Of a DNA stretch of 55,519 bases, positions 32,701 through 47,968 are shown piece by piece. Position numbers and translations under genes: made by a program. The stretch's first letter is position 1. Every line of letters starts with the position of its first letter. Under the pieces are notes generated by a model. That model saw only the letters and a list, made by a program, of their open reading frames with translations, did no database searches and had not been told where the DNA came from. The stretch comes from Saprospiraceae bacterium (GTDB lineage: Bacteria; Bacteroidota; Bacteroidia; Chitinophagales; Saprospiraceae), in the NCBI GenBank assembly GCA_013001975.1, contig JABDKX010000039.1, forward strand, positions 1 to 55,519, in the 5' to 3' direction.

Positions 32701-35700
32701 TAAACGGTCACAGTGAATGCAACATCATCACCTGTATTAAATGGACCAGGTGTTGCCACAAAATTGATTTGCTTAAGGAGTGCTAAGTCAAATACTTGAC
32801 CTACAACAATCATTTTTGAAGCTTCATCATCTTCCGATTGATCACCATCATCATTACCTGGTGTACTGTCTACATCTTCAAGTAGTAAATTATTTGGATC
32901 AATAATTTGCGCTGTATTAACTATGGATTGATTCATAAACATATCATCAATTGTAAATGTAATTTCTACATCTACAGAAGTACCTACTGCAACTAAAGGA
33001 ATTGGCGTATTCAAAGTTGCCACGGATCCGTTCTGTGTCCAATCTGAGTCATTTAAAATCAAACCACTTGGTATATTGTCTTCTAATTCTACATTCGGTG
33101 CATTTACAGTACCTTGGTTAGTTACCGTTAAAATGTATGTAACAGTACTTCCCGGCATGTATGGACCACCTGTGCTGCAATCTTTTTCAAGAGCCAAATC
33201 AAATGTTTGTTCAACTTCGATTATAGCCACATCATGATCATCTTCATCTCCGTTTTCACTATTGACGCTATTATCACCACCAACAACATCATCATTAATC
33301 ATGTCAGGTGTTGAATCGCTATCTTCCATCGGAGGATTATTAGGATCATTGTCGTTATCAGCTTGAGATATCTCAGCTGTATTTGTGAGACTGAAACCCA
33401 TAAAGTCACTATCTATCGTAAACGATATTTTTACATCTACATTTGTTGAATCTTCAAGGAAAACGATATTATCATTAAGTGTCGCCAAATCTCCGTTTTG
33501 CGTCCAATTACCATCGTTTAATGTCAAACCATCTGGTACATAATCTACAAGTCCAATATCAAAGGCTCCAATATTTCCTTGGTTAATAACATTGATATTA
33601 AATGTTACTGCATCTCCTGGCTCAAAAGGTCCTGGTGTTGCAATTGTATCAAGCGTTTTGATTAGAGCTAAGTCAAATCTTGGACAGAAATCTTCGTTGT
33701 TATTATCTTGAACTTCAACAGTAGTTTCACATAATGCGGTGTTTCCGAAAATATCTGTAACCCAAAGCTCAATTGTTTGAATTCCTAAATCATTACAATC
33801 AAAGATCAATTTATCATGCGTTGTATCTTGAGAAAAACTCAAGTTTATTGGTGTATCACAAACATGAGTACTGCTTGCATCTACCATCTCAGGAAAGACA
33901 CATGCTCTTTCTGTATCTGGTGTTCCATTGCCATCCAAATCCATAGGTTCAACAGCGATGCTGATACCATCAATACATGCTGCCGTTGGAATCGTAATAT
34001 TATTTACATTTATAATTTTGGCACAAGTCGTCGTATTATTACATTGATCAGTAAATGATATTAATGCAAAGTGCTGACCTATTGGTAATTGACCATTAAA
34101 GTTTATTTGACCTGCTGTCATTTTAACTTCAATATCAAATACACCCATCCCGTCACTAAAAGTATCTATTTGAATTCTTGCTTTTAAATCTTCAGGCAAA
34201 GTACAATCATCTTCCGCAGTTGCAGAGAATGAAACATTTTCACTTAAACACTCCTCAGTAAATATGTTTAATGTATCACAACCTGTTTGAATTGTTGGAC
34301 CAACAACATTGTTTACCTTAATCACTTGATCATAAGTTTCAGGCTCATAATCAGGGTCATCCATTTGACACCAATCAATAACTGTCCATCTTCTTAATAT
34401 TTTAAGACAAGCATCAGAACCAGGACCTGCAAAAGCAAATCTTTGTTCATCGTAAGATACAGCAAGCTGATTACAATTTGATATATCATATCTTGGTCTT
34501 CCAAATTCTACAGCCAAACTATCTGGATGCAAATCACCTTGAGTACATCCTAAGTCCGTATCAAAATCAAGAGGCCAAGTGATAACATTTTCTGTTGTTC
34601 CTAAAGTATTAATTATGGTCAATACTTGATCACAAGAACTAAATCCATTATTGTCTGAAGCATAAAATCTTCTGATTATATCGCCAAACATACACTCGTT
34701 TCTAGTATCAATTATTGAATCTGAAATTTCAGATCCACATTGATCAGTTGCAGTTGCCGTTCCAAACTCACTAAGATCTTCTATATTAATATCTCTTTCA
34801 CAACTTACGTCTTGAGAAGGTGGACAAGTTATTTTTGGAGCAACTTTGTCTTGTACTTCAACATTAACCATACATTCGTTGGTTCTACCAAAGTAATCCA
34901 CTACTCTAAATACTACTTGCTGAATTTCAGCTGCATCTTCACAACAGAAATAAACTTCATCACTGAATCCACATGGATCATTTACTTCCAATATATAATA
35001 TGCTTCAACATCAAAACCATCAACAACTACCCAGTCTCCATACAAGTTGGTTACCACATTGTCTCCAACGTCGGCTGGACTTCCGCCAATAAATTTATTA
35101 AAATCAGGTTCTGTATGATCCTCCCAAGTAAACTGTCCTGGGTGACCTTTATCACTTAACCCAATATAATAAGGACTAGAAATATATTTAATCGCTTGTT
35201 GATGTAACCAATTACACTCATCCTCCGAATCAAGAACAACTAAGTTACCACCATATGCTGATGAATAATCAAATGCTTTTGTTCCATGAGTTTTGAAAGA
35301 GGACAAGTAATAGTAAGATCCATCTCTCTCCCCAAGGAAATTCATGTCTTCAAATTCTGGTCTGACACAATCACATTGAGAATCCATTCTTCGAACGAGT
35401 GTTTTGAATAAACTACAATCATCATAACTGCCATCGTCAAAAGTATGAGCAAAAGCTTTTGCTGTACCTGTTGACCTTAGAGATACGATTGTATTTTCAT
35501 CACAGACAGCAACTGGATTACTTTGATCTAAAACTTCAATATTAATAGAACATGAATCAATATTTTCACATTGGTCATATACAAAATACTTAGCTTGAGA
35601 AACGCCTGACTCTATAGTCACCTGCTGAGCTGTTTTTACATTTCTATTAAATCCACCATCATATGAAAGATCGATAATAAATGTTGTTGAACAATCATCA

Positions 35701-46395: not shown

Positions 46396-47223
46396 TTATA
46401 AAGATTTACAAGATTGATACCTGCCCAAAATTTGGCTCTGAACAGTTTGTTTTGACACCCAATCCAGCATATCATCATATGTTGACAAATCATTCAATTC
46501 TACTTCAATGAAAAATTGATATTTCCATGGAGATCCAACTATTGTTGAAGACTCAATTTTTGTCAACGATATATTGAGCGCTTGAAAACCATTCAATAAA
46601 TTCGCCAGACTTCCCACATCGTGACTCAACACCAATTGGATCGTAATTTTATTGCCCTTTTCATTCACAATTTTATTATCCGACTTTTTAATTATATAAA
46701 ACCTGGTATAATTTAATTTATCAGATTCAATACTCTCCTCTAATATTTGTAACCCATATTGATCTATGGCATGCTTGCTGGCTATAGCGCCTACGTTATG
46801 TAAATTATTGTCCGCAATTGATTTAGCCCCTAATGCAGTATCGGAAGCATCAGTCAGTTTTATGCCAGGATATTTAACAAAAAAGTCTCTGCATTGATTA
46901 ATCGCCATATAGTGTGAACGCACTTCTTTCAGATCGTTTAATTTTGTACCTTTTAATGCGCCTAAGTTTTGGATGATTCTTATTTTTTGTTCACCACAAA
47001 TTGTCACATCTTTATCAGCAATTAATTTCAAATTTTGATTTATCGTTCCTGATATTGTATTTTCAATGGCTATAACCCCGTAATGTGCGTTTCCACTTTC
47101 GACACTGTGAACCAAACTTTTAAAATCAGGATTGGAATCGATTAGGATATCATTGCCAAAATACTTGATAGCTGCCTCTTGGTGAAATGCTCCTTTAATC
47201 CCTTGTATCGCTACTTTTTTCAT
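46396..47223 (-). CDS. pheA: Prephenate dehydratase
   Basis: Catalyses prephenate to phenylpyruvate, the committed step in Phe synthesis. The 275-aa protein has a dehydratase domain (about 1-185; IAIENTISGTINQNL, SHYMAINQC and the catalytic-site TRF at residues 173-175) and an ACT domain (about 192-270). The ACT motif usually written ESRP is ESST here (residues 225-228), as IESSTIVGSPWKYQFF. It has no chorismate mutase domain, so it is the monofunctional form. Upstream is a tandem Phe-rich leader with two terminators, indicating attenuation by Phe-tRNA supply. Confidence 0.94.
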   Translation of the reverse strand: MKKVAIQGIKGAFHQEAAIKYFGNDILIDSNPDFKSLVHSVESGNAHYGVIAIENTISGTINQNLKLIADKDVTICGEQKIRIIQNLGALKGTKLNDLKEVRSHYMAINQCRDFFVKYPGIKLTDASDTALGAKSIADNNLHNVGAIASKHAIDQYGLQILEESIESDKLNYTRFYIIKKSDNKIVNEKGNKITIQLVLSHDVGSLANLLNGFQALNISLTKIESSTIVGSPWKYQFFIEVELNDLSTYDDMLDWVSKQTVQSQILGRYQSCKSL

Positions 47224-47234
47224 TTAAGTAAATT

Positions 47235-47258
47235 AAAAAACCCAACCTCATGGCTGGG
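47235..47258 (-). terminator. Attenuator terminator 2 (proximal to pheA)
   Basis: Minus-strand CCCAGCC (47258-47252) pairs with GGTTGGG (47247-47241) around a 4-base loop, one G-U pair, followed by T6 (47240-47235). It ends about 12 bases before the pheA ATG. CCCAG (47258-47254) can instead pair with CTGGG (47293-47289), which directly follows leader peptide 2. Confidence 0.85.
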
Positions 47259-47293
47259 CGAATGATTTAATATTTAATATCACAAATACCCAG

Positions 47294-47347
47294 TTATCCT
47301 TTGGTAAAAAAGAAACAGAAACTGAAGTATGTGCTCATATTTTTCAT
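47294..47347 (-). CDS. Phe leader peptide 2 (17 aa)
   Basis: ATG at 47347, TAA at 47296-47294. The product reads MKNMSTYFSFCFFFTKG, with five Phe in a seven-residue run (F8, F10, F12-F14). No other role is likely for such a peptide in front of a Phe-synthesis gene. Its stop directly precedes the antiterminator arm CTGGG. It contains the same SFCFF core as leader 1. Confidence 0.85.
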   Translation of the reverse strand: MKNMSTYFSFCFFFTKG

Positions 47348-47357
47348 TTTAATTATT

Positions 47358-47384
47358 AAAAAAAGCCCAACAAATTGTTGAGCT
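47358..47384 (-). terminator. Attenuator terminator 1 (distal)
   Basis: Minus-strand AGCTCAACA (47384-47376) pairs with TGTTGGGCT (47372-47364), nine pairs with one G-U, loop of 3 bases, followed by a T run to 47358. A competing helix of ten pairs (two G-U) joins 47419-47410 (GAGCTTGATA) with 47389-47380 (TATTGAGCTC), overlapping the terminator 5' arm. Confidence 0.85.
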
Positions 47385-47411
47385 CAATAGTTTTTATATG
47401 TTAATAAAATA

Positions 47412-47477
47412 TCAAGCTCCATTTCTACTAAAAAAGTAAAAGAAACAAAAACTTGTATTTCTGATGTTTAATTTCAT
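47412..47477 (-). CDS. Phe leader peptide 1 (21 aa)
   Basis: ATG at 47477, TGA at 47414-47412. It starts MKLNIRNTSFCFFYFFSRNG and holds five Phe and one Tyr in seven residues (F10-F16 region). Its last codons and stop overlap the antiterminator arm (47419-47410), so ribosome position decides pairing. This is the classic arrangement of amino-acid attenuation. Confidence 0.85.
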   Translation of the reverse strand: MKLNIRNTSFCFFYFFSRNGA

Positions 47478-47620
47478 AATAATATATCTAATATAGAGAG
47501 TATAATTGATAATTGCTAATTCAATTTAAAAAGATCGTAGAAAACGCGTTTCAAGCAATACGATATTTTCAATTCCTTTCATTATATTTATAATTATTAA
47601 TAACCCTAAAAAACAAACAT

Positions 47621-47968
47621 ATGTCTAATACTTGGTTTGCAGGAAATTTTTGCCCTAGTAACGCAGAATGCTCATTGGAAGAAGGAGCCCTTTCACCACC
47701 TAACGGTCCAAAATTAAGGACGCTCAAGATGAATGAAGCAACAAACAAAACTTTAACAGCTACAGTAAAATCCTTTGAATCAGGAACAGAACCAGATGGA
47801 TGGTTAAAATGTGAAGGACAGATGGTATATATAGGCGATCAAACTGCGTTATTTTCTCTTTTAGGAACCAACTATGGTGGAGATGGCAGAGCAAGTTTTG
47901 GAATGCCTGATTTGAGAAACGAAGATGGAGATTACTTTATTTATACGTTAGCATTTTTTCAAGACTAA
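47621..47968 (+). CDS. Tail-collar-domain protein (microcystin-dependent protein MdpB-like)
   Basis: A 115-aa protein with no signal peptide. The second half matches the phage tail collar fold: GTEPDGWLKCEGQMVYIGDQ, LFSLLGTNYGGDGRASFGMP, then DLRNEDGDYFIY at the end. Bacteroidota carry many such short proteins outside prophages, where they are thought to be parts of contractile-injection or surface structures. No other phage gene is nearby. It diverges from pheA, and its product ends only a few bases before a terminator for the opposite strand. Confidence 0.8.
   Translation: MSNTWFAGNFCPSNAECSLEEGALSPPNGPKLRTLKMNEATNKTLTATVKSFESGTEPDGWLKCEGQMVYIGDQTALFSLLGTNYGGDGRASFGMPDLRNEDGDYFIYTLAFFQD

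Follow-up and report, generated by a model that had tools for sequence, protein, structure and literature searches.

Two phenylalanine-rich leader units in series before pheA in a Saprospiraceae genome: a probable tandem transcription attenuator with counterparts across the family

The window, the whole stretch of 55,519 nucleotides from a Saprospiraceae bacterium that was analysed, carries on its minus strand a pheA gene preceded by two short leader ORFs, with an intrinsic terminator after each. The features of the locus are as follows.

Leader ORF 1, 47412-47477, minus strand: MKLNIRNTSFCFFYFFSRNGA then stop, with Phe codons within 47450-47430 (sequence with ORF and terminator scans).
Unit 1 antiterminator 5' side (region 2), 47404-47419, minus strand: overlaps the leader 1 stop codon at 47414-47412 (folding).
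Unit 1 antiterminator 3' side (region 3), 47380-47397, minus strand: 47385-47380 are common to the 5' arm of terminator 1.
Intrinsic terminator 1, 47358-47385, minus strand: hairpin 47385-47363 and a T-run to 47358 (-11.3 kcal/mol).
Leader ORF 2, 47294-47347, minus strand: MKNMSTYFSFCFFFTKG then stop, with Phe codons within 47326-47306 (sequence with scans).
Unit 2 antiterminator 5' side, 47279-47293, minus strand: immediately 3' of the leader 2 stop codon (folding).
Unit 2 antiterminator 3' side, 47254-47266, minus strand: 47259-47254 are common to the 5' arm of terminator 2.
Intrinsic terminator 2, 47235-47259, minus strand: hairpin 47259-47240 and a T-run to 47235 (-13.0 kcal/mol).
pheA, 46396-47223, minus strand: prephenate dehydratase, 275 aa (PF00800, E 6.7e-51).
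Divergent intergenic stretch, 47478-47620, minus strand: the expected promoter site if a single promoter drives both units.
Divergent neighbour gene, 47621-47968, plus strand: 115 aa with a phage tail collar domain (PF07484).

Each leader contains five Phe codons and one Tyr codon and has an SFCFF core, and the two cores are 130 nt apart. The first-pass annotation had described two Phe-rich leaders in series before pheA, and its coordinates, five-Phe counts and SFCFF cores hold. It had also placed a terminator after each leader; both were recovered by the terminator scan, which detected 2 terminator-like sites in 47150-47700 as compared to 0.2 (sd 0.4) in shuffled sequence. The T-run of terminator 1 is separated from leader 2 by 10 nt. 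Folding of the minus-strand leader region, a check proposed at the outset, gave z -3.04 against its shuffles, with 1 of 200 shuffles folding equally well. Rfam models returned 0 matches in the window at the gathering threshold, with no leader family, T-box or riboswitch, and at E<=1 the single match was to a snoRNA (E 0.1), far under its own threshold. Among 14 relative loci no Rfam leader was matched, and the sole match was an unrelated Flavo-1 RNA in L272. The gene map placed the window pheA alone with no aminotransferase gene next to it, unlike most of the relatives examined.

Enteric pheA is preceded by one Phe-rich leader unit, pheL, with exclusive antiterminator and terminator structures that respond to the charging of Phe-tRNA. 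As an arrangement, the window is like this system in its Phe-rich leader, its exclusive structures and the prephenate dehydratase downstream, and unlike it in having two units in series. It combines leaders rich in codons for the end product, intrinsic terminators and a gene of the same pathway, and in modelled truncated RNA the antiterminator excludes the terminator and is masked by a ribosome at the stop codon.

For this modelling each unit was cut before the 3' arm of its terminator, the ribosome footprint was masked and the remaining RNA was folded. In unit 1, 47419-47404 paired with 47397-47392 and 47389-47380, and in unit 2, 47293-47288 and 47283-47279 paired with 47266-47262 and 47259-47254; the mutually exclusive pairings that had been noted earlier are present in the truncated RNA and are longer than was given. 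In unit 1 region 3 paired with region 2 at a probability of 0.98-0.99 when the ribosome was placed on any of the Phe codons and of 0.00 when it was placed on the stop codon, and the corresponding values in unit 2 were 0.82 and 0.30. The antiterminator also formed in ribosome-free truncated RNA (0.98 for unit 1 and 0.81 for unit 2). Using the measure applied across the family, the stalled and stop values were 0.61 vs 0.10 for unit 1 and 0.81 vs 0.15 for unit 2. When set against shuffled region 2, the antiterminator duplex of -12.3 kcal/mol had p 0.016 in unit 1 and that of -12.3 kcal/mol had p 0.049 in unit 2. Full-length RNA at equilibrium gave no switch, with a terminator probability of at least 0.78 (unit 1) and at least 0.89 (unit 2) at all ribosome positions tested; when the ribosome stood at F15 of unit 1, the best single full-length structure was the antiterminator. 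As the switch was seen in truncated RNA only and the terminator was kept in full-length RNA, the modelled switch depends on co-transcriptional order, as in classical attenuation.

Pairing between the two window units was weak (crossed -6.1 and -5.1 kcal/mol as compared to own -12.3 and -12.3 kcal/mol), and each unit is predicted by folding to switch independently of the other. Across the family the own antiterminator was stronger than the crossed pairing in 55 of 61 pairs (two of 63 were lost to length filters), with mean energies of -14.3 kcal/mol for own pairing, -10.4 for crossed pairing within a genome and -9.6 between genomes (within vs between p 0.025). The mean of -10.4 kcal/mol for crossed pairing within genomes suggests that the units of relatives are incompletely insulated.

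The upstream regions of relatives were compared, as had been suggested with the original description of the locus, and aromatic codons and stems recur there. The search matched pheA in 205 of the 298 family genomes, and 155 family loci among the matches listed were examined. The final rule scanned 620 nt upstream for at least 5 F/Y/W in 9 codons, with a hairpin of -7.5 kcal/mol or lower and a T-run within 140 nt. This rule had been loosened twice after inspecting misses, the final version accepting three start codons and folded terminators, and loci with two units numbered 48/165 with F only, 54/165 with the aromatic mix and 63/165 with the final version; shuffle and reverse-strand controls were run for the two later versions only. 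With the final rule, among the matches listed, 63 of 165 loci had two or more units, 80 had one and 22 had none. The family counts leave out the broken pheA pieces L025 and L026 and eight loci of the same order that belong to other families (L005, L010, L014, L015, L017, L019, L023 and L024), two of which had one unit and six none under the final rule. Removing a further eight family loci with <400 nt upstream from the 155 left 147, and among the matches listed 62 of these were tandem, 74 single and 11 without a unit, so that one or two aromatic-rich units were present in 136/147. Tandem loci occurred in 35 of 77 family genera among the matches listed, and included the cultured Phaeodactylibacter xiamenensis KD52 (L261). 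The tandem arrangement is common in the family and is not an oddity of the window genome. With 74 of 147 loci single and 11 without a unit, a tandem is unnecessary for function. The leader stops are 118 nt apart in the window and a median of 160 nt apart over 63 pairs. A called third unit in L006 and L111, and a called second unit in L187, L190, L278 and L293, were judged spurious by eye on distance, weak hairpin or non-ATG start.

These counts bear on the idea that T-rich intergenic DNA yields Phe-rich ORFs and hairpins by chance and without function, which we find hardly credible. Phe codons are TTT or TTC and the region is AT-rich, and a single unit did appear in 10 of 495 dinucleotide shuffles of the pheA upstream regions and in 6 of 165 of their reverse strands. 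Two units appeared in 0/495 shuffles and 0/165 reverse strands, and the occurrence in 35 genera and the match of codons to operon also argue against chance.

The pairing was assessed across the same loci. Region 2 paired with the terminator arm better than shuffles did (p<=0.05) in 44/62 first units, 37/62 second units and 52/80 single units, one of 63 first units and one of 63 second units having been removed by length filters. Mean own pairing was -14.0 (unit 1), -14.6 (unit 2) and -13.2 kcal/mol (single) as compared to -10.2, -10.1 and -9.2 kcal/mol with swapped partners, and the paired segment began at the leader stop codon, with median offsets of -1, -1 and -2 nt respectively. A strict switch, defined as a value >0.5 when stalled and <0.25 at the stop, was found in 36/63 first units, 19/63 second units and 25/80 single units, with 5-8% in shuffled spacers. 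Both units switched strictly in 10 of the 63 pairs, the window included, and neither did in 18. The lower frequency in unit 2 argues against equal strength of both units.

In a PheA tree of 158 proteins the tandem label required at least 20 changes as compared to 49.3 with shuffled labels, gains and losses being counted alike, and well-supported branches forced 5 changes. The window grouped with L027 (tandem) and L028 (single) with support 99, the window and L028 being flagged as long branches. It is unlikely that a single unit does the regulating in the window genome, with a relic or a read-through terminator as its partner. L028, the other close pheA relative, does have one unit, the strict switch is rarer in unit 2 than in unit 1 across the family, and L121, L123, L129, L133 and L137 have only a distant unit 1 with unit 2 uncalled, an apparent unit loss. 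Set against this, L027, the nearest tandem relative, has two units, and five Phe codons, an in-frame start and stop, and a hairpin with a T-run are retained in each window unit, with the antiterminator of each masked at the stop codon in the model.

One unit had been read in the first pass as a duplicate of the other. The resemblance itself stood: similarity between unit 1 and unit 2 of the window exceeded composition, with z 6.6 and 0 of 300 shuffles as good, and this was higher than in any of the 124 cross-genome comparisons of a unit 1 with a unit 2 in which either took part (best 5.4), and higher than the best match of each to a unit at the same position elsewhere (5.8 and 5.4). The same within-locus resemblance was seen in L027, the closest tandem relative. 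There is thus modest support in the aligned units for a possible within-lineage duplication or homogenisation. Unit 1/unit 2 pairs drawn at random from different genomes had a 95th percentile of z 7.8, and for this reason we do not claim within-lineage duplication; tandem loci are also spread across the family, and a duplication may be recent or old. As a separate observation, L123 and L129 retain unit 1 and have repeated CCCACGG...CCGTGGG hairpin DNA where unit 2 would be, which may represent a unit 2 lost via a repeat element.

The two window leaders together contain 10 Phe and 2 Tyr codons, and their Tyr share of 0.17 was the lowest of 63 pairs; F/(F+Y) in the leaders of relatives was 0.62 for unit 1, 0.58 for unit 2 and 0.60 for single units. 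The next ORF after pheA was aminotransferase-like in 137 of 155 family loci (one tested copy was PF00155), and by coordinates tyrA lies close downstream of pheA in many family genomes. The tyrA of the window genome (PF02153, E 5.4e-30) is on another contig and has its own terminator-bearing leader, MNKTFTTYYTWSYFYLKNGL, with 2 Phe and 4 Tyr codons.

Window-genome tyrA leader, L166, contig C244 near 35015-35449: a DAHP-synthase-like gene, named by eye, follows tyrA.

The pheA-aminotransferase-tyrA order of relatives is broken up in the window genome, and the leaders look re-specialised. Twenty tyrA regions, picked as possibly split, were fetched; 8 had pheA upstream, and the remaining 12 were scanned with a looser rule of 4 aromatics in 9 codons. 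Leaders were found before tyrA or aminotransferase-tyrA without pheA in 6 of the 12, with Phe:Tyr of 0:4, 0:6, 2:3, 3:3, 4:4 and 4:4, the 0:4 leader being that of G002, a genome of the window's genus without a pheA match. Among the rest, L414 gave only a distant, unconvincing call and five had no leader. The Tyr-only leaders of L401 and L413, MRNNYCNTYYGYWTTEVVL and MNYTSTYYSYWYYLLMTDRPVL, stand before tyrA or aminotransferase-tyrA with no adjacent pheA. The lone-pheA leaders of genus code g57 (L094, L108 and L144) had Phe:Tyr of 4:1, 4:1 and 5:0, plus Ile; these three were called by the F-only rule and missed by the final rule, and two further g57 loci were uncalled by either. One g57 example with Phe and Ile and few Tyr reads MKNNFFINFIIIFIYELS, and in the g57 genomes G070 (L108, L396) and G171 (L060, L397) aminotransferase-tyrA is on a different contig from pheA.

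Tyr share had a mean of 0.41 and a range of 0.14-0.83 in the 187 leaders of pheA with an aminotransferase-like next ORF, a group outside which fall the 18 of 155 family loci lacking such an ORF, some of them at contig ends. The range was 0.00-0.20 for lone pheA (5 leaders, two genera) and 0.50-1.00 for tyrA without adjacent pheA (7 leaders, four genera), with rank tests of 8e-5 and 1e-4 that count relatives as independent in small hand-picked groups. Leader codons follow the controlled genes, which supports the leaders as sensors and the window pair as sensing mainly Phe.

The two units of a pair differed in Tyr share with a smaller variance than in 1000/1000 random within-pair redistributions (63 pairs). 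A fixed make-up common to every leader, and not a matching of partners, may lie behind this, and with either cause the result argues against a Phe/Tyr division of labour as a rule. Judged by codon content, both units of a pair seem to read one signal twice. In the Salmonella mgtCBR leader, which its authors call 'a singular example' in the accessible text of PMC3641672, the two leader ORFs respond to two different signals, ATP and proline. As portrayed in that text, mgtCBR shares with the window a single leader RNA that holds two leader ORFs and a set of alternative structures for each of them; the window is unlike it in that its units seem to sense the same amino acids, have a terminator each and precede a biosynthetic gene. 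Codon content gives no sign in the window of ORFs reading different signals. An mgtCBR-like gate, in which units reading different amino acids would require both Phe and Tyr shortage signals, is very improbable here: each window leader has 5 Phe codons and 1 Tyr codon, set against a Tyr-dominated unit 2 beside a Phe-richer unit 1 in L086, L152, L115, L039 and L088 and a mean unit 2 Tyr share that is slightly higher, by 0.035 (Wilcoxon p 0.07). The low difference variance tells against it as well, and 0 of 14 extreme-ranked pairs were significant singly. As a general rule the gate, attractive from L086, L152 and L115, was rejected because the Phe:Tyr make-up of paired units is too alike.

Outside the family, 67 class and phylum loci were scanned, from which three family members (L181, L188 and L191) were removed to leave 64. 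Two of these were convincing pairs (L202 and L213, both of genus code g152), 46 had one unit and 16 had none; the 46 take in the weak L232 as well as L187 and L190 after the second call was discounted. A set of named loci was also scanned, 78 of the best 80 of 586 related stretches, with L247 and L258 left out where the match lay at a contig edge. Convincing pairs were found in 9 of these 78 (best 80 of 586): in the family, Phaeodactylibacter xiamenensis and four MAGs (L251, L254, L269 and L274), and elsewhere Marinifilum breve, Ancylomarina sp., a Salinivirgaceae MAG and a MAG labelled Bacteroides. L254, L261, L269 and L274 match, in their leaders too, family loci already counted (L086, L085, L098 and L089). 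Within the best 80 of 586, Sphingobacteriaceae had one unit at 9/9 loci and Flavobacteriaceae at 24/26, L278 and L293 adding a distant TTG-started call that was discounted. In the loci sampled here pheA is usually preceded by a single Phe/Tyr leader, and pairs turn up repeatedly, in several lineages.

Leaders of other amino-acid genes were mostly single. Under a Trp rule, trpE had one leader with a terminator at 26/30 loci (that of L357 being unconvincing) and two at 0/30, and the window genome's own trpE (L350) has a single Trp leader, MNLFTNTNWWWLNTDKAYRD. A His-rich ORF preceded hisG at 19/22 loci, six of the 22 coming from other families of the order, and 15 were clearly followed by a called terminator. 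The one tandem among the 22, L318 (G029), has MILIQLHQHHHSSIRLLRR and MTCNIHFHHHHAFVEHCKW with a terminator after each. The doubled attenuator is enriched at pheA as compared to the trpE and hisG loci examined, which were scanned with other codon rules, in smaller samples than pheA and without a shuffle control.

Taken with the leaders, terminators, modelled switches, weak cross-pairing, recurrence, enrichment at pheA and the match between codons and gene, the window locus is very probably a tandem ribosome-mediated transcription attenuator with two units in series before pheA. The polymerase would transcribe unit 1 as a ribosome translates leader 1. With ample Phe-tRNA the ribosome would reach the stop codon and cover region 2, terminator 1 would form and transcription would end; with Phe-tRNA scarce the ribosome would stall on the Phe codons, region 2 would pair with region 3 and the polymerase would enter unit 2. 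Unit 2 would repeat the decision with its own leader and terminator, and pheA would be transcribed only if both were passed. On this reading, termination would occur at both hairpins in vivo.

A single promoter presumably lies upstream of both units. Promoter scans gave nothing above chance, the sigma-70-like match at 47519-47490 (9/12) being no better than chance in scans that catch Bacteroidota promoters poorly. Promoters of the phylum type follow the pattern TTTG-N17-23-TANNTTTG, which a pattern scan found absent here. A second promoter in or after unit 1 that feeds unit 2, giving two transcripts instead of a series, is quite unlikely. Another sigma-70-like match does lie at 47381-47352 (9/12), the stretch having 3 such matches as compared to 3.1 by chance, and the poor capture of Bacteroidota promoters by such scans leaves space for this reading; the absence of the phylum-type pattern here speaks against it, and the gap between terminator 1 and leader 2, 10 nt in the window with a median of 26 nt over 63 pairs, leaves little room for a promoter there.

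If the units do act in series, two passes would be expected to multiply repression, cut leakage and demand a lasting shortage, and it is plausible that two attenuators would sharpen the response. We tentatively suggest, with somewhat more doubt than belief, that a same-signal pair acts as a persistence detector, in which a starved ribosome would be needed twice and a brief or random stall at one leader would be insufficient; if so, leakage would be the product of two small read-through probabilities. Range, leakage, noise and persistence filtering are candidate benefits of a second same-signal attenuator. The natural set of one- and two-unit loci, together with the mostly single trpE and hisG leaders in overlapping genomes, makes the benefit of the second unit directly testable.

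Leader-peptide attenuation is a textbook single-step switch, and relatives of the window carry one or two copies of it before the same gene. The mechanism is known; two attenuators in series for what seems to be the same signal appear to be a new architectural variant. The surprise lies in the spread across lineages and the enrichment at one gene rather than in the single window: at the gene of the Phe/Tyr branch point the pair recurs widely in the family and also in other parts of the phylum. The arrangement had been thought undescribed in the phylum, and no description of tandem Phe leaders or of a Bacteroidota pheA leader was found in the accessible text of an open-access library; what changed is that the arrangement is common and not peculiar to the window genome. 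A 2010 survey in Mol Biol by Lopatovskaya and others might cover Bacteroidota.

Doubled regulators of other kinds appear in the accessible portions of several papers. Tandem riboswitches (glnA, glycine and metE) have repeated units and are linked there to more digital control (PMC2864571, PMC3641672), and metE, unlike mgtCBR, has two sites expected to be intrinsic terminators (PMC3641672). By these partial accounts tandem riboswitches are thought to bind metabolites by RNA, whereas the sensor in the window would be the translating ribosome. The rimP leader of some Gammaproteobacteria has a second terminator in tandem according to the available part of a survey of premature terminators, in which 'Bacteroid' and 'pheA' are absent (PMC2965389). 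In the accessible text of PMC2864571 the Bacteroid-trp RNA of Bacteroidetes (RF01692) and an actinobacterial pheA motif are predicted cis-regulatory RNAs, neither listed there as a doubled Bacteroidota Phe leader. The available portions of PMC4833913, PMC1262725 and PMC10272879 likewise contain no description of a tandem Phe or Bacteroidota pheA leader. Phe/Tyr uORFs at shikimate genes are reported in the accessible text of PMC6429828 from five genomes, none of Bacteroidota, and 5' UTRs of Bacteroides thetaiotaomicron carry short ORFs reminiscent of leader peptides in that of PMC7366714. By the census presented here, pheA is predicted to be under leader-peptide control widely across Bacteroidota, named cultured species included.

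The genus of the window (G001-G013) was also noted for its gene content. A pheA match was absent in 11 of its 13 genomes and a hisG match was absent in the window's genome; G006 has a divergent pheA copy and G013 has two pheA pieces with internal stops. Loss of amino-acid synthesis is patchy in this genus.
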